Below, in pieces: positions 25,456 through 35,760 of a stretch of 38,638 bases of DNA (position 1 is the stretch's first letter; every line of letters starts with the position of its first letter). The notes beneath the pieces are model-generated. The model did not search any database. It was not told the origin of the DNA and saw only the letters and a program-made list of their open reading frames with translations. Origin of the DNA: a virus; IMG/VR virus record IMGVR_UViG_3300030116_004138, positions 1-38,638 of that record. One strand, 5' to 3'. Both the position numbers and the translations under genes were made by a program.

Positions 25456-26532
25456 TCAACCGATTGCTGGAGCTGTCAGAGCTACAGGAGTAGTCTCAGC
25501 AGCAGCCAGATCAAGCGGGAAGTTATGTGCATTACGCTCGTGCATCACCTCAAAGCCGAGGTTTGCACGGTTAAGTATGTCAGCCCAGGTATTAACTACC
25601 TGACCATTGTTTGCAATAATGGATTGATTAAAGTTAAACCCATTGAGGTTGAAGGCCATTGTACTCACGCCGAGTGACGTGAACCATATGCCGACAATAG
25701 GCCAAGCAGCAAGAAAGAAGTGAAGGCTACGGCTATTATTGAAGCTGGCGTATTGAAAGATAAGCCTACCAAAATAGCCGTGAGCAGCAACAATGTTGTA
25801 AGTCTCTTCCTCTTGACCAAATTTGTAACCATAATTTTGAGATTCGTTTTCAGTTGTTTCACGCACGAGAGAACTCGTGACAAGACTTCCATGCATTGCT
25901 GAGAACAAAGACCCACCAAATACGCCGGCAACACCAAGCATATGGAAAGGATGCATAAGAATATTGTGTTCAGCTTGGAAGACAAGCATGAAGTTGAATG
26001 TACCGGAAATGCCAAGAGGCATGCCATCAGAAAAAGAACCTTGGCCGAATGGGTAGACCAAGAAGACTGCAGCAGCTGCAGCCACAGGAGCAGAGTACGC
26101 AACAAAGATCCAAGGCCTCATGCCTAGTCGATAACTAAGTTCCCACTCTCGTCCCATGTAAGAAAAGATACCAATGAGGAAGTGGAAAACGACGAGCTGG
26201 TATGGTCCGCCGTTATATAGCCATTCATCAAGTGTATTAGCTTCCCAAATTGGGTAGAGGTGTAGTCCGATGGCGTTGCTGCTCGGAACGACGGCTCCTG
26301 AAATGATGTTGTTTCCATAGAGGAGGGAGCCTGATACGGGTTCGCGGATTCCATCAATGTCTACGGGTGGAGCTGCAATAAATGCAGTAATAAAGCAAGT
26401 AGTTGCGGCCAGTAAACACGGAATCATAAGGATTCCGAACCAGCCAACATAAATTCGGTTGTTAGTAGAGGTTACCCAGGAGCAAAACTCATCCCAGGCA
26501 GACCTCTGTTGTTGTTGTAATACAGCGGTCAT
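25456..26532 (-). CDS. psbA: Photosystem II reaction-centre protein D1
   Basis: 358 aa, five transmembrane helices, inserted in host thylakoids to replace photodamaged D1. Typical segments: [20 protein letters not shown] (helix A), [14 protein letters not shown] (helix B), [50 protein letters not shown] (helix D, chlorophyll and Fe ligands) and [17 protein letters not shown] with the Mn-cluster ligands. The C-terminal processing site follows LDLA. The residue equivalent to D1 position 130 is Glu (E129 here, in YMGREWEL), the high-light D1:2 type of cyanobacteria. No introns or disruptions. The start codon is within a potential hairpin (26530-26583). Acquired from a host; an auxiliary gene that maintains electron flow during infection. 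Confidence 0.98.
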
Positions 26533-30214: not shown

Positions 30215-30902
30215 TACTATGCTCAAAGAACGCTGGCATCCGACCAGCCTTGGTCTCTGCTAATTGAGGTGCTTTACCCTCATACATCAACCGGTCACTA
30301 GACTCCAGCCAAAATTTTTTGTTCAAATACTTGTCGGAGTGATTACCCAAAGGTTGCATTACCCAATGGATAGTTGCCTTCCTGAGCTTATCAAGAGAAG
30401 GACTGATGTTGTACCCCAGCTCAGTATGAACCAGACTATTGGTAGCCACATGGATTTGTTCATCACGGCTAATATCAGCGGAAACTGTTCTCATGCCAGC
30501 GTCACCATTAAAGCGAAAGAATGGTAAAAGAACGAAGAAGATTGCACGCTCGGCAACCAACGCTTTTGTGATCGTGTGATCTGGATGTGCCTCCCACGCG
30601 GACTTAAGCCGTAGTGCTTCCGCCTCAGCTTGTTCATCAATACCGTAAGCATTGGCGATGTAATTAAGTGCGATGTCGTGGTTCTCTTCGTCTTTGACGT
30701 TTGATTCCAGTATTGTTTTCGCGAGTACCGGTACTTCAGAGGTAAGAGCATCACTGATAAAATCTCCCACAGGTAGTTCCATGTGCCTTAATGCAAGAGC
30801 ACGGTGGATCGCTTCCTCCGCACCCTTCTTGCAAGTACCAGCAGTTGTCTGGACTGGTGTCCACTTTCTTTTTCTGTTTAGTAGTTTCTCGTACGGATTC
30901 AT
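30189..30902 (-). CDS. nrdB: Ribonucleotide reductase beta subunit, class I-type, no radical Tyr
   Basis: 237 aa, short for the family (usually 320-380). The diiron/dimanganese ferritin-like ligand set is visible: E72-x-x-H75 (in DEENHD), E118 (in VAERAIFF) and E148-x-x-H151 (in RDEQIH), with E42 as the likely first ligand. In class Ia proteins the radical Tyr is four residues after the first His; here that residue is Leu79. The cofactor must store its oxidising equivalent elsewhere, as in tyrosine-free subclasses. It starts inside the nrdA stop (ATGA), so alpha and beta are translationally coupled. The C-terminus has one near-terminal Tyr (NLPQYA) for contact with alpha. Confidence 0.87.
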   Translation of the reverse strand: MNPYEKLLNRKRKWTPVQTTAGTCKKGAEEAIHRALALRHMELPVGDFISDALTSEVPVLAKTILESNVKDEENHDIALNYIANAYGIDEQAEAEALRLKSAWEAHPDHTITKALVAERAIFFVLLPFFRFNGDAGMRTVSADISRDEQIHVATNSLVHTELGYNISPSLDKLRKATIHWVMQPLGNHSDKYLNKKFWLESSDRLMYEGKAPQLAETKAGRMPAFFEHSNVNLPQYA

Positions 30903-32284
30903 TCTTGACAGTCACATTGAAGTTCTTCAGTCGGCCCTTCAAGTAAACTGGCAATGTAGTCTTCTACTTCAGCTTCTTCTAAAGCTGCATAAGCACTTGA
31001 CTTATCTTGTACATCACCCATCACTTGAAGAGAATAATAAAGGGAGGTCTGAGGAGATTTCAACCACTCTTCGATAAAGGCGTTGTCGTAGGTGACAACA
31101 TCACTCCAACTGTTGAAGCTATACCCATGAAGAAGTCCCGTGCGGTCTAGGAGAGTCATGATGCCATCAGCAACACGCTTGTAATTTTCCCAACCGACTT
31201 TACTGGCGATTTCAACTTCGCCATAATCATATGTTTGTACACCGAACGTCCCGCTATCACGGTCTACTGTCCGGCTAATTGGTGGTGCAATTTCAGGGGT
31301 AGCTGTATAACCATCAAGGTCCTTTGAACGGTAGCTACAAGATGCTGTAGGAGCAATTGCAAAAGCACGTACCATATTATGTACACGTGCAATTCCAGCG
31401 GCTTGTTTGATACCTTCAGCAATGGCTACGACTAATTCGTAAGCAGGTGTTCGTACTGCAGTGCCATTGTTGTAGTCATCTAGTGCAATACCAAACTGCT
31501 CATAGGTTATGCCGTACCGCCGTAGGAGGTTGGCAAGTCCAAGCATTCCAAGTCCAACTTGTCGGTCTGTTTCTGCTGGCAGATATTCTCCTGTATCTCC
31601 GACGCCAGTTCGAGCATGGAGGTTGCACAATTGCTGCATCCCTTCAGCGAAAGCACGCGGAATGTCATCATATTCACAGGCAGCGAGATTGACATGCTGC
31701 AAGAGGCAGGTTCCTCGCGACGGCAAGTACACCTCAAGACAAACATTTCCCCGGATTCGGTTTCCTTCATTGTCATACTTGATTTTGTTTAACCAGATGT
31801 CACCAGACTTGATTCCAAACAGAAGGGCTTTCTTGGTTTCCTCCGACGCAGCTTGCCAACTATCTTCGGTGATGTTGACGCATCGTTTGACCCAAGGCAA
31901 TTCAGATCTAGAAGCCGTGATAAATTCAACAATGTCGGCGCCATCAAGATCGTAATGCAAAACAATCGCACCATTCTTGTACTTACCGCCACGTCGGAGC
32001 ACCTCATTCAAAGAAGAATAGATTTTCCCGAACGACACAGGACCAGAGGCAACAAGCCCTTTTCCGTTATCGTTCCCTTTGGGTCGTAGATTGGATAAAT
32101 GAATTGCAACTCCTGCTCCGTTTCTGAGGGCGTGGGATGCAAATCGCCAGCTGGCTTCAATGCCTTCTGGTCCTTCCATTGAGTCATCAACAACAAAAAC
32201 CGTGCACGACACGGGAAGGCGTCCCTCTGGATCATCAATCCAAGATTGAACACGCCCAGTTCTAGAGATATAAGAGGTGGTCAT
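30899..32284 (-). CDS. nrdA: Ribonucleotide reductase alpha subunit, minimal class I-type
   Basis: 461 aa, much shorter than typical NrdA (about 700-760), with no ATP cone. Catalytic features: redox Cys27 (SCTVF) and Cys203 (NLAAC), thiyl-radical motif N180-x-C182-x-E184 (NVCLEVYLPS), phosphate loop around APTASCSYRS, C-terminal radical-transfer pair Y416-Y417 (SLYYSLQ), and final redox Cys457/Cys459 (CDCQE). The Tyr pair is specific for class I and argues against the class II label often given to short phage enzymes. It reduces ribonucleotides to deoxyribonucleotides using the neighbouring beta subunit. ATGA overlaps with MazG-like upstream and nrdB downstream. Confidence 0.92.
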   Translation of the reverse strand: MTTSYISRTGRVQSWIDDPEGRLPVSCTVFVVDDSMEGPEGIEASWRFASHALRNGAGVAIHLSNLRPKGNDNGKGLVASGPVSFGKIYSSLNEVLRRGGKYKNGAIVLHYDLDGADIVEFITASRSELPWVKRCVNITEDSWQAASEETKKALLFGIKSGDIWLNKIKYDNEGNRIRGNVCLEVYLPSRGTCLLQHVNLAACEYDDIPRAFAEGMQQLCNLHARTGVGDTGEYLPAETDRQVGLGMLGLANLLRRYGITYEQFGIALDDYNNGTAVRTPAYELVVAIAEGIKQAAGIARVHNMVRAFAIAPTASCSYRSKDLDGYTATPEIAPPISRTVDRDSGTFGVQTYDYGEVEIASKVGWENYKRVADGIMTLLDRTGLLHGYSFNSWSDVVTYDNAFIEEWLKSPQTSLYYSLQVMGDVQDKSSAYAALEEAEVEDYIASLLEGPTEELQCDCQE

Positions 32285-32670
32285 GGGTTAACTAGATCGT
32301 TAAGAATAGGTGGTGTGTAGTTTGGTCCTTTCAGGACTTTGCCGTCTGCACGGCGGATTGGTTTACCGTCCAACCCAAGTTTGGACATGTTTGATTTATG
32401 GACACGATCAAGTGCTTTCTCTAGATCCCATTCCATATTTTCTGCATACTGAAAACAGACGTATACAAGGTCTGCTAGCTCCTTAAGTTCACACTCATAC
32501 GGCTCAGATCTGTGTGCCTTTTGAAACTCTTGGAACTCTTCAGCGATCAAAGTCAATTGCATAGCCCGGTTCTCCAGACTGTTCTGAATCCCGTACGCTG
32601 TGCGGAACTCTATCGCTTGATCGCTCGCACTCTTTGAGATGCAATGTGGTGTTGTACAGTTCATTTTCAA
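32281..32670 (-). CDS. MazG-like nucleotide pyrophosphohydrolase
   Basis: 129 aa all-alpha NTP-PPase. Ligands E-x-x-E (in LIAEEFQEFQ) and E-x-x-D (in ELKELADLVYV), then DRVHKSNMSKLGLDGKPIRRADGKVLKGPNY, a tail that phage MazG-like proteins share. It hydrolyses (d)NTPs, or possibly ppGpp-like signals, during infection. The ORF overlaps the DUF3310 gene by 130 bases in another frame. A shorter start at the internal Met of MQLTLIAEE is possible, but FRTAYGIQ upstream resembles the family N-terminus. It is coupled to nrdA by ATGA. Confidence 0.85.
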   Translation of the reverse strand: MKMNCTTPHCISKSASDQAIEFRTAYGIQNSLENRAMQLTLIAEEFQEFQKAHRSEPYECELKELADLVYVCFQYAENMEWDLEKALDRVHKSNMSKLGLDGKPIRRADGKVLKGPNYTPPILNDLVNP

Positions 32671-32839
32671 GGTAATGGATAGCCTTCTTCAGGTCTTCAA
32701 TCTCTGTGTGAGTGCTTTTGAATCCGGCTCTGCAAATGTATTTGATTGCATTGCCTCTGAAATAATTAAGGTCTTGATCTCTAATAAAATCCCAGACCTC
32801 TATGGATCCACGGGTGTAGTGCTTGGGGGACTCGGCCAC
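32540..32839 (-). CDS. DUF3310 protein
   Basis: 99 aa. HYTRGSIEVWDFIRDQDLNYFRGNAIKYICRAGFKSTHTEIEDLKKAIHYLENEL is the DUF3310 pattern, also found in the C-terminal part of T7 gp1.7, a nucleotide kinase. A role in nucleotide metabolism is therefore likely but not established. The last 35 residues have no family match and overlap the MazG-like gene in another frame. It starts 40 bases inside the NblA-like gene. Confidence 0.87.
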   Translation of the reverse strand: MAESPKHYTRGSIEVWDFIRDQDLNYFRGNAIKYICRAGFKSTHTEIEDLKKAIHYLENELYNTTLHLKECERSSDRVPHSVRDSEQSGEPGYAIDFDR

Positions 32840-33030
32840 TGTTTTACTAAGTTGCTGACAGTATTTGATAGTGCAAAGTTCTGGCGTTGAAGTGCCATAA
32901 ACAATGTGATGATGTCTTTCTTCTCTGCGGCAGGTAAAAGATCTTCAAGACGGCGGAGCTTGAATGATTGCTCCACCGTCAAATCAGTCACCGGCATCGG
33001 AAGGAGACCAGGGTATGACTCGTCCGTCAT
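32800..33030 (-). CDS. NblA-like phycobilisome degradation adaptor (candidate)
   Basis: 76 aa. Residues 17-65 read LTVEQSFKLRRLEDLLPAAE, then KKDIITLFMALQRQNFALSN and TVSNLVKQW. They align, with one gap, over the whole core of cyanobacterial NblA as I remember it (Anabaena: LSLEQQFSIR...LYEQMVV...ELLKHQW). Shared: the L-[ST]-x-E-Q-x-F-x-[LI]-R start, L47-x-x-Q50, and L61-x-K63, equivalent to the Leu and Lys needed for ClpC contact. NblA links phycobilisomes to Clp protease. A phage copy would dismantle the antenna and release amino acids. Both ends overlap neighbours (47 and 40 bases). The assignment is from motif reading only. Confidence 0.72.
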   Translation of the reverse strand: MTDESYPGLLPMPVTDLTVEQSFKLRRLEDLLPAAEKKDIITLFMALQRQNFALSNTVSNLVKQWPSPPSTTPVDP

Positions 33031-33712
33031 AATTTTGGTTGGTAAGGATCTTTGCTAGCCGTGCATTCATGAGTGCATCATTTTCTGTCAAACCTTTGTC
33101 TTCAAAAGCTTTCACAACAGTACTCCATTTATATCCATGCTCTTCAAACAATGCGATTGCACGTTTGACACCTATACCAGGTACACCTGAGTAACCATCA
33201 GTCTGGTCACCAGCAAGTGTTTGAATGTAATGCCACTGCATACCATCTTCAGGAGTGATGTCTACCACTTCTTCCATGTTGTACAGCTTGCCTGGTATCT
33301 GTCGCATGTCCTTATCAGGACTGACGATGATGTTGTCAGGATGTTTAGTTGCATAGACGCCCATTGCATCGTCGGCTTCTAGCTCAGGCCATCTTATGAC
33401 TTCATAGTGCTTAGATAGTTCTGTGATGACACGTTTGTATCCACAGGGCTTTTTTCTATTTCGATGACCTTTGTAACTTGGGTAAATTTTTTTCCTGAAA
33501 TTTTTAGAGTCACTAAAGAACAAAATCATTTCAGGCACATCCCACATGAACTCAGCTTTGATGCGTGATAGTTCATTGGTGACATTTTTATAGGCTTCAG
33601 TGAAGCGGCTGACGACTACAATGACATCATCACCAAAGTCAAAGTCTTCCTCTGCTGCAGCACATGCTTTATAGACGATGAAGTCCGCATCAATGAGGAG
33701 TTTCAATCCCAA
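32984..33712 (-). CDS. 5'-3' exonuclease (T7 gp6-like, FEN/PIN family)
   Basis: 242 aa. Metal-binding acids appear in LLIDADFIVY (first Asp), ELEADDAMGV, IIVSPDKDMRQIPG and LAGDQTDGYSGVPGIG. The last includes the helix-hairpin-helix GVPGIGVKRAIALFEEHG. This is the gp6 family, which removes RNA primers and degrades host DNA for nucleotides. It starts 10 bases before the end of the upstream ORF. Confidence 0.93.
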   Translation of the reverse strand: MGLKLLIDADFIVYKACAAAEEDFDFGDDVIVVVSRFTEAYKNVTNELSRIKAEFMWDVPEMILFFSDSKNFRKKIYPSYKGHRNRKKPCGYKRVITELSKHYEVIRWPELEADDAMGVYATKHPDNIIVSPDKDMRQIPGKLYNMEEVVDITPEDGMQWHYIQTLAGDQTDGYSGVPGIGVKRAIALFEEHGYKWSTVVKAFEDKGLTENDALMNARLAKILTNQNYDGRVIPWSPSDAGD

Positions 33713-34158
33713 AAATCCTCCCAGCCTTTAGGCTCTCTACCTTTCACCCATCTAATTTTATGTGTAATAGGATGAACGATTACAGGTGTAGCAATTTTTT
33801 TGGAAATATTTCCAGCACTACCATACCTACCTTGACCATTCTTTTTACTTACAGCAACATCTACAGAAATCAGATCCTCAGTTCCTCGTGCAAATACAAG
33901 ATCTACTGATCCTGTACACCCAGCATTTTGGAATACTTCTACACCTCTTTCCCAAGCTGCTAAAGTCACCAAAAGTTCGTAGTAATCTCCAATTCTGTTA
34001 GGATCAGTGGACTTCGGACCAGTCTTTACCCTGTTTAGCTTCAGCTTCGATTGGGACTCGTAAGTTGTAGTACTCTCCTGCGGCTGTAGCTGCGTAAATA
34101 AGTCCTGCTGACAAGTCGTTTGCGTGCTCTCTATGACACTCGTACTGTAATTCGTCAT
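33703..34158 (-). CDS. Possible PD-(D/E)XK-type nuclease-fold protein
   Basis: 151 aa from ATG at 34158; a TTG at 34215 is also in frame. The first 45 residues overlap the polymerase 3' end in another frame and are Gln/Thr/Ser-rich, so true initiation may be later. The folded part, GDYYELLVTLAAWERGVEVFQNAGCTGSVDLVFARGTEDLISVDVAVSKK, has the helix-strand-strand layout of PD-(D/E)XK proteins with E61, D86 and D100. The usual Lys of E-x-K is Ala102 (K105 follows). It could be an inactive or migrated-Lys nuclease. I do not recognise a named family. The C-terminus is KGREPKGWEDFWD. Confidence 0.68.
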   Translation of the reverse strand: MTNYSTSVIESTQTTCQQDLFTQLQPQESTTTYESQSKLKLNRVKTGPKSTDPNRIGDYYELLVTLAAWERGVEVFQNAGCTGSVDLVFARGTEDLISVDVAVSKKNGQGRYGSAGNISKKIATPVIVHPITHKIRWVKGREPKGWEDFWD

Positions 34159-35284
34159 GTATAAATGCAAGCTGTGATGCACACAGCTGGGTGGTTTTAA
34201 TTGTTTGATCAGCAATCACCATCCACCGCTTCGCAACTACACCTGCTCCCGACTGAAGCAAGTAGTTCAAAGCTTTGTGTGATGAATCAAGTTGGATTTT
34301 CCGTCCGTCTATAGATCGGATAAAGCCCTTCTCAGATGCCTTTTTGATTGCCTGAAGAAGTTCCGCAAGACCATCAATAGCCGAAACAAATGCTTTTCTG
34401 ATGTCCTTACCTTTCTTACTAGCCTCACCATCACTCAAGGCAGAGTCAAAGGAGTGTCCAATTTTTTTGTCTCCTGCTCCGTAGAGGAAGGCATAGGTAA
34501 CTGTTTTGACAGCACGTCTGGAGATGCCAATTTTGTCGGCATTAACTTGGTGAATGTCTCCATTGAGGAGGATATCCGCATACCTACCGTCGTCATAACG
34601 AGCAAGATAGTGAGCGAGCATCCTAAGTTCAATACCAGAAAGGTCTGCTCCCACCATGATCTGGCCTGGGGTTGCGGTAAATAGCTTTCTAAATTCAGTT
34701 TCACTTGGTACTTGGGCTAAGTTGGGTTTTCTATGTGCACATCTGTGCGTGTTGGTTGCTACTGAACAGTGATGATGAATCCTAGATTTCGTAGAAAGCT
34801 TGAGCCATGCGTTGATGCCTTCGGATATCATCCCCAATTTCTTGGTAATATCTAGACATTTCATGAACTCCAAAGCAATCGCTGGCCCATCGGACGCAGC
34901 TATCTCCTTCAGTACAATCTCGTCTATAATCGGCTTCCCAGTAGGTGTCTTCTGGGTTGGTTCCCAGCCATGAAATGTTTGCAGGATCCATGAAATATGG
35001 TCGCGAGAGGTTACGTTTGTTTCCTTTAGTCGTGTGAATGTACATCCTTTGACATACCCAGCTGGACCGTTATCTCGTTTAGGAGTAAATTCCGGTCCTG
35101 CAACGTAAGGGTGTTTGTTGCGTAATAATTCAGTAGTTTTTTCAAGCTCTGATCTGAGAGTAGATGCAAGTTCCCATGCAGCGCATTCATCAAAACACCA
35201 TCCATGTAGTTCTTGTTTAGTAAGGATCTGAGCAACCTCGTGCTCTAGCGCAACCCACTCAGGTATGGGTGGAAGTGGTCGCAT
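34004..35284 (-). CDS. DNA polymerase family A, polymerase domain ORF
   Basis: 426 aa covering palm, thumb and fingers of T7 gp5. Motif A has D214 (VGADLSGIELRMLAHY), motif B R256/K260/Y264 (RRAVKTVTYAFLYGAG), and motif C H376-D377-E378 (FIHDELQ). The end is KDWSEVH, like the T7 terminal His. Tyr264 corresponds to E. coli Pol I Phe762, the residue that in T7 is Tyr526. There is no exonuclease domain in this ORF. That domain is in the ORF just upstream in another frame, overlapping by 40 bases. ATG at 35284 has no Shine-Dalgarno and lies 2 bases past a seven-A slippery run, so it may be made mainly as a -1 frameshift fusion of about 585 aa. Confidence 0.92.
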   Translation of the reverse strand: MRPLPPIPEWVALEHEVAQILTKQELHGWCFDECAAWELASTLRSELEKTTELLRNKHPYVAGPEFTPKRDNGPAGYVKGCTFTRLKETNVTSRDHISWILQTFHGWEPTQKTPTGKPIIDEIVLKEIAASDGPAIALEFMKCLDITKKLGMISEGINAWLKLSTKSRIHHHCSVATNTHRCAHRKPNLAQVPSETEFRKLFTATPGQIMVGADLSGIELRMLAHYLARYDDGRYADILLNGDIHQVNADKIGISRRAVKTVTYAFLYGAGDKKIGHSFDSALSDGEASKKGKDIRKAFVSAIDGLAELLQAIKKASEKGFIRSIDGRKIQLDSSHKALNYLLQSGAGVVAKRWMVIADQTIKTTQLCASQLAFIHDELQYECHREHANDLSAGLIYAATAAGEYYNLRVPIEAEAKQGKDWSEVH

Positions 35285-35760
35285 AGTTTTTTTGTTACGT
35301 TTACATCTTGTATGCAGTATTCCTGCATTTCAGGAGACCATCGCTGCCAATCAGTACTTTTTCCAAACGATCCTTTGTATTCACCAAGCCGGTAGCCGTA
35401 GGACTCTAATGAATGCCTGCCATACATTTGAGGCGGCATGTTAGCCCAGGTGTGTTTTTGATCCACACCGAGCATGTTTGTGTGATAGAGCCTAGATAAC
35501 AATAATGTATCTACAACCAAGGCGGTTGGTTGGAACCACGGATAGATTTTCTGAAGTACAGGTATGTCATAAGCGATGACATTATGGCCGCAAATGATGT
35601 CCGCTTCTTCAAGTACTTGAACACCACGGACAATAGGTTCTTCATTCCCTTCATCGTTGTAGACAAGGGTTTGATCAGTCTCTGTGTTATAGATGACCAA
35701 ACAGTGGATACAGGTAACATCATGAAGAAGGCCGTTACTTTCCAGATCGAATACGAGCAT
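35245..35760 (-). CDS. DNA polymerase 3'-5' exonuclease domain ORF
   Basis: 171 aa equal to the N-terminal proofreading domain of T7 gp5. Exo I D5/E7 (FDLESNG), Exo II D65 (GHNVIAYD) and Exo III D152 (YCIQD) keep the same spacing and even the same numbers for D5, E7 and D65 as T7. The frame ends at TAG (35247-35245) right after HPYLSGLR. K157-K158 are encoded within A AAA AAA, a canonical -1 slippery heptamer in the correct frame; a shift there continues as TMRPLPPIPEW into the polymerase ORF. Alternatives are two separate chains or a sequencing error in the A run. Confidence 0.9.
   Translation of the reverse strand: MLVFDLESNGLLHDVTCIHCLVIYNTETDQTLVYNDEGNEEPIVRGVQVLEEADIICGHNVIAYDIPVLQKIYPWFQPTALVVDTLLLSRLYHTNMLGVDQKHTWANMPPQMYGRHSLESYGYRLGEYKGSFGKSTDWQRWSPEMQEYCIQDVNVTKKLCDHFHPYLSGLR
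35287..35293 (-). other. Candidate -1 ribosomal frameshift site
   Basis: Coding-strand sequence ACA AAA AAA CTA: the heptamer A AAA AAA in zero frame (X XXY YYZ type). Downstream, CCACT (8 bases after the heptamer) can pair with AGTGG, or alternatively ACCCA with TGGGT (16 bases after). Both stems are short (5 bp). Slippage by -1 joins the exonuclease frame to the polymerase frame. Confidence 0.55.

Follow-up and report, generated by a model that had tools for sequence, protein, structure and literature searches.

Gene arrangement at the locus

The window, which is the whole stretch of viral DNA analysed here (38,638 nt; IMG/VR record IMGVR_UViG_3300030116_004138), contains a short minus-strand ORF for a 76 aa protein, flanked on one side by a T7-like exonuclease gene and on the other by genes for a DUF3310 protein, a MazG-like protein and ribonucleotide reductase (Table 1). 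The original prediction had placed a 76 aa ORF here, among nucleotide-supply genes, and its position, strand, start and stop codons and surroundings were all verified. The first 47 nt of the ORF are shared with the end of the exonuclease gene, and its last 40 nt with the GTG start of the DUF3310 gene. ThyX and a T7-type endonuclease I are also encoded in the window. A phage-borne D1 and a phage-borne Hli had been proposed as well; the former was clearly identified, whereas the latter is likely from its sequence but scored below the family cut-off.

Table 1. Coordinates of the features discussed, in the window and in phages carrying diverged homologues
Feature	Coordinates	Strand	Evidence or remark
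NblA-family gene, 76 aa	32800..33030	-	ATG start, TAG stop; PF04485 match and conservation
Leu61-Val62-Lys63	32842..32850	-	Aligned with Leu51/Lys53 of Anabaena NblA (1ojh_A)
T7-like 5'-3' exonuclease (gp6-like)	32984..33712	-	PF02739, E 5.3e-13; phrog_107, E 9e-65
DUF3310 protein ('nucleotide kinase' in annotation of relatives)	32540..32839	-	PF11753, 54.1 bits
MazG-like nucleotide pyrophosphohydrolase	32281..32670	-	phrog_671, E 3.8e-31; PF01503, E 3.8e-7
Ribonucleotide reductase (class II type), large chain	30899..32284	-	PF02867, E 4.3e-19; same slot annotated in relatives
psbA (D1)	25456..26532	-	PF00124, 298 bits
Likely high-light-inducible-like protein (hli), 63 aa	27261..27452	-	PF00504, 19.1 bits (cut-off 22.3)
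DNA polymerase, two overlapping ORFs	35245-35760 and 34004-35284 (34004-35760)		
ORF of 170 aa	33703-34215		phrog_23404
NblA-family loci of Prochlorococcus phages	L003:2465-2776 (P-SSP7), L054, L063, L177		Diverged homologues

Selection on the ORF was examined in the core codons that are free of gene overlap. Comparison with relatives (L008, which was out of register, excluded) gave a median pN/pS of about 0.23 (range about 0.16-0.30); in most pairs the synonymous sites were close to saturated. Purifying selection therefore acts on these codons, and the ORF is a real, conserved gene. Its shortness, the overlap with both neighbours and the fact that several relatives' records leave it without annotation might suggest a chance or vestigial frame between overlapping genes, but there is next to no chance of this, as it is refuted by the conservation of the protein in codons whose synonymous sites are nearly saturated, and identity among phage homologues is 48-84%.

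Assignment to the NblA family

When the 76 aa protein was searched against the whole Pfam library, PF04485 (NblA) was matched with 24.6 bits (E 3.4e-5), positions 1-49 of the 50 in the model aligning to residues 16-64; the same family was recovered for the gene in a search of the whole record. Taken singly this match is marginal, being 0.4 bits below the gathering cut-off of 25 bits, which was exceeded by the homologue of the cyanophage isolate S-TIP37 (27.8 bits). An alignment of the protein with 22 IMG/VR relatives (A1) was consistent throughout, in that all 23 members matched PF04485 (best E 4.8e-9). Residues E20, Q21, K24, D39, A46-L47-Q48, Q50, N56 and W65 were invariant in A1, and the residues cited in the original prediction (L17-T-V-E20-Q21-S-F-K-L-R, L47-x-x-Q50 and L61-x-K63) were all present.

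Profile comparisons gave the same assignment. In a search of the PDB with the A1 profile, ranks 1-4 were 3cs5 (E 1e-5), 1ojh, 2q8v and 2qdo (E 0.03-0.2 for the latter three), all of them NblA entries and together the four solved NblA sequences. A genome scan with the Synechococcus elongatus NblA peptide yielded a single locus, and cellular NblA was then collected by family search. HHalign aligned A1 with the resulting 14 cyanobacterial sequences over 55 columns (E 2.6e-6), and an HMM built from them scored the 76 aa protein at 13.6 bits, against a best score of 6.9 among 1,880 shuffled sequences. The sole NCBIfam match was the NblA equivalog NF045916 (23.6 bits), far from its curated cut-off of 100 bits, and the protein is thus classed as a distant member of the NblA family and not as a strict equivalog. 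Among phage families the best was PHROG 27006 (E 1.4e-19, 70.6 bits), for which PHROGs gives no function. Plasmids searched by tblastn returned no match. A match to SpoVIF (PF14069, E 0.16) was rejected as a chance helical match.

The AlphaFold2 model of the protein consisted of two helices, at residues 19-34 and 37-63 (pLDDT about 90), so that it has the small size and helix-loop-helix form of NblA, with its core of about 55-65 aa. Foldseek against the PDB and VIA-align returned only weak, unrelated matches to this model and no NblA structure, which is uninformative because the query is a two-helix hairpin of tiny size. Against viral models Foldseek gave one strong match, A0A516MNW8, which at 70% identity is a close relative and adds no function. 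L61 and K63 were nearly invariant across A1. By alignment they correspond to the C-terminal Leu/Lys pair L51/K53 of Anabaena NblA, reported to take part in phycobilisome binding (Bienert et al. 2006).

Identity to cellular NblA was low (about 22% over 55 columns) and the predicted structure is made up of helices only, as would be expected if a small helical phage protein, for example an accessory of host takeover or DNA replication, resembled NblA by convergence alone. This is very improbable, since the match is collinear across the whole domain, including the N-terminal LxxEQ motif, the C-terminal Leu-x-Lys and the Trp that follows it, and since NblA was both the sole family recovered and the top group in the PDB. 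What sets the protein apart from cyanobacterial NblA (3cs5, 1ojh, 2q8v and 2qdo), besides its divergence and its location in a phage, is a pair of extensions that overlap neighbouring genes, a proline-rich lead at the N-terminus and a tail at the C-terminus; the two helices, the N-terminal EQ and the C-terminal Leu-x-Lys are shared. The gene of this T7-like virus of marine cyanobacteria is thus in all likelihood a phage-borne nblA, as had been predicted.

Distribution in cyanophages and earlier reports

Relatives of the protein were encoded in 37 phage records, all from cyanophages or uncultured marine phages; 50 IMG/VR loci carried a relative at 60-84% identity, and 18 named cyanophage isolates carried a homologue. 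In the named phages examined the order was the same: exonuclease, then the nblA-like gene, then DUF3310, MazG-like and ribonucleotide reductase genes. The nearest isolate over 25 kb (45% covered, 77% identical) was S-TIP37, which is T7-like and infects Synechococcus WH8109, in keeping with the T7-like context that had been described for this DNA. From this kinship the likeliest host of the window's phage would be a phycobilisome-bearing Synechococcus. The S-TIP37 homologue has 73% protein identity to the window copy, the same slot after the exonuclease and a length in the same range; the differences, including the PF04485 scores given above, are at the sequence level only.

No gene was annotated at the nblA slot in S-TIP37, S-RIP2, NATL1A-7 and the fosmid phage AP013538, perhaps because the ORF is overlapped by both of its neighbours. 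The earlier expectation that annotation pipelines would call the gene hypothetical was thus right, or even generous. In S-RIP1 (L056:2430-2608) the nblA-like gene matched in two frames and is frameshifted in the record, as a pseudogene or through an error of sequencing.

Phage-encoded NblA has been described before. PMC9602691 credits Nadel et al. 2019 with the prediction of nblA in 15 cyanophage isolates from marine and estuarine waters, of which 14 were cyanopodoviruses; in a published tree the cyanopodovirus genes formed a separate cluster. The same paper states that S. elongatus lost phycobilin on expressing nblA genes recovered from viral metagenomes of marine origin, and that freshwater phage copies degraded phycobilisomes when expressed. 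The freshwater phages Ma-LMM01, MaMV-DC and PaV-LD and the cyanomyoviruses S-TIM5 and S-SCSM1 likewise encode NblA but belong, by published description, to different phage groups from that of the window. More recently, viral NblA has been reported to harm host photosynthesis (Nadel et al. 2025, Nature 648:434-442, cited in PMC12892361). The same review, itself recent, cites an estimate that photosynthetic light capture may be lowered by up to 5% worldwide. The identification of nblA in the window is therefore right, yet not new in kind, cyanopodovirus nblA having been predicted in 2019 and viral NblA studied in 2025. The later work reportedly deals with T7-like cyanophages and includes deletion of a gene from a phage. 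Phages that carry NblA dismantle the principal light-harvesting antenna of cyanobacteria in the ocean, and the window adds one further probable carrier.

Proposed function

The NblA dimer is a four-helix bundle in which the C-terminal part of the protein binds phycobiliproteins and the N-terminal part binds ClpC. NblA serves ClpC as an adaptor, binding phycobilisomes and handing them to the Clp protease (PMC7966870, PMC4103541). By homology, the window's protein would likewise dimerise into a four-helix bundle, with its C-terminal part binding phycobiliproteins and its N-terminal part binding the host ClpC chaperone, and phycobilisomes would in this way be delivered to the ClpC-ClpP protease. 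Degradation of the antenna would free amino acids and lower excess excitation, and phage-encoded D1 and Hli would meanwhile sustain photosystem II. To this explanation as a whole, a viral NblA that delivers the antenna to ClpC-ClpP with D1 and Hli retained, we assign a probability of roughly 0.88. The position of the gene between the exonuclease and the nucleotide-supply genes makes it probable that it is expressed along with the replication genes and suggests early-to-middle timing.

Homologues in Prochlorococcus phages

Homologues were also found in the Prochlorococcus phages P-SSP7, P-SSP3, NATL1A-7 and P-GSP1. The gene occupied the same slot in P-SSP7 (PSSP7_019A), P-SSP2, P-SSP3 and NATL1A-7, and the P-GSP1 homologue was diverged and adjoined ribonucleotide reductase. 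Taken singly, the copies of P-SSP7, P-SSP3 and NATL1A-7 had no Pfam match. The family profile nevertheless gave an alignment to cellular NblA (HHalign E 1e-4). With the cyanobacterial-NblA HMM the P-SSP7 copy scored 12.5 bits, above all shuffled sequences (maximum 6.9). Two helices were predicted here too, at lower confidence.

The P-SSP7-group homologue is under strong purifying selection. In its non-overlapping core the median pN/pS was 0.12 over 119 pairs, which have ancestry in common and so do not count as independent. Between P-SSP7 and P-SSP2 about 0.8 of the synonymous sites differed, and the amino acids were almost unchanged. Prochlorococcus uses other antenna proteins and is without phycobilisomes and nblA (PMC7439483). 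Retention of the homologue in phages of such hosts means that antenna breakdown may be only a part of what these proteins do, and the selection on it hints at another target for a Clp adaptor. The record of P-SSP2 gives Synechococcus WH8017 as host, and some of these phages may also infect Synechococcus, so that the antenna explanation, though weakened, may still hold for them.

The window's protein could be a ClpC adaptor of the NblA fold that, during infection, acts chiefly on other host proteins and not on phycobilisomes, antenna loss being secondary or absent; the occurrence and the low pN/pS of homologues in phages of a host that lacks nblA would favour this. We consider it improbable, because the window copy falls in the Synechococcus-phage group and keeps, by alignment, the phycobiliprotein-binding Leu/Lys, and because loss of phycobilin is a published effect of a marine viral NblA (PMC9602691). 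The cyanopodovirus NblA family as a whole, to which the window's gene belongs, might have a conserved role that is not limited to phycobilisomes, in which it brings other host proteins to the Clp protease. We regard this as somewhat unlikely; if true, it would explain why a diverged homologue is kept under such selection in P-SSP7 and similar phages of Prochlorococcus, a host without phycobilisomes or nblA. For the window itself, delivery of phycobilisomes to ClpC-ClpP is the preferred explanation.

Other features of the window

The DNA polymerase of the window is represented by two overlapping ORFs (Table 1). The annotations of S-TIP37 and P-SSP7 show the polymerase divided in like manner; a frameshift or a split protein has been suggested there. 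Between the polymerase and the exonuclease lies a 170 aa ORF which overlaps the end of the polymerase. It has no Pfam match and belongs to a PHROG family with no function given, and its C-terminal half resembles a PD-(D/E)XK nuclease by eye.
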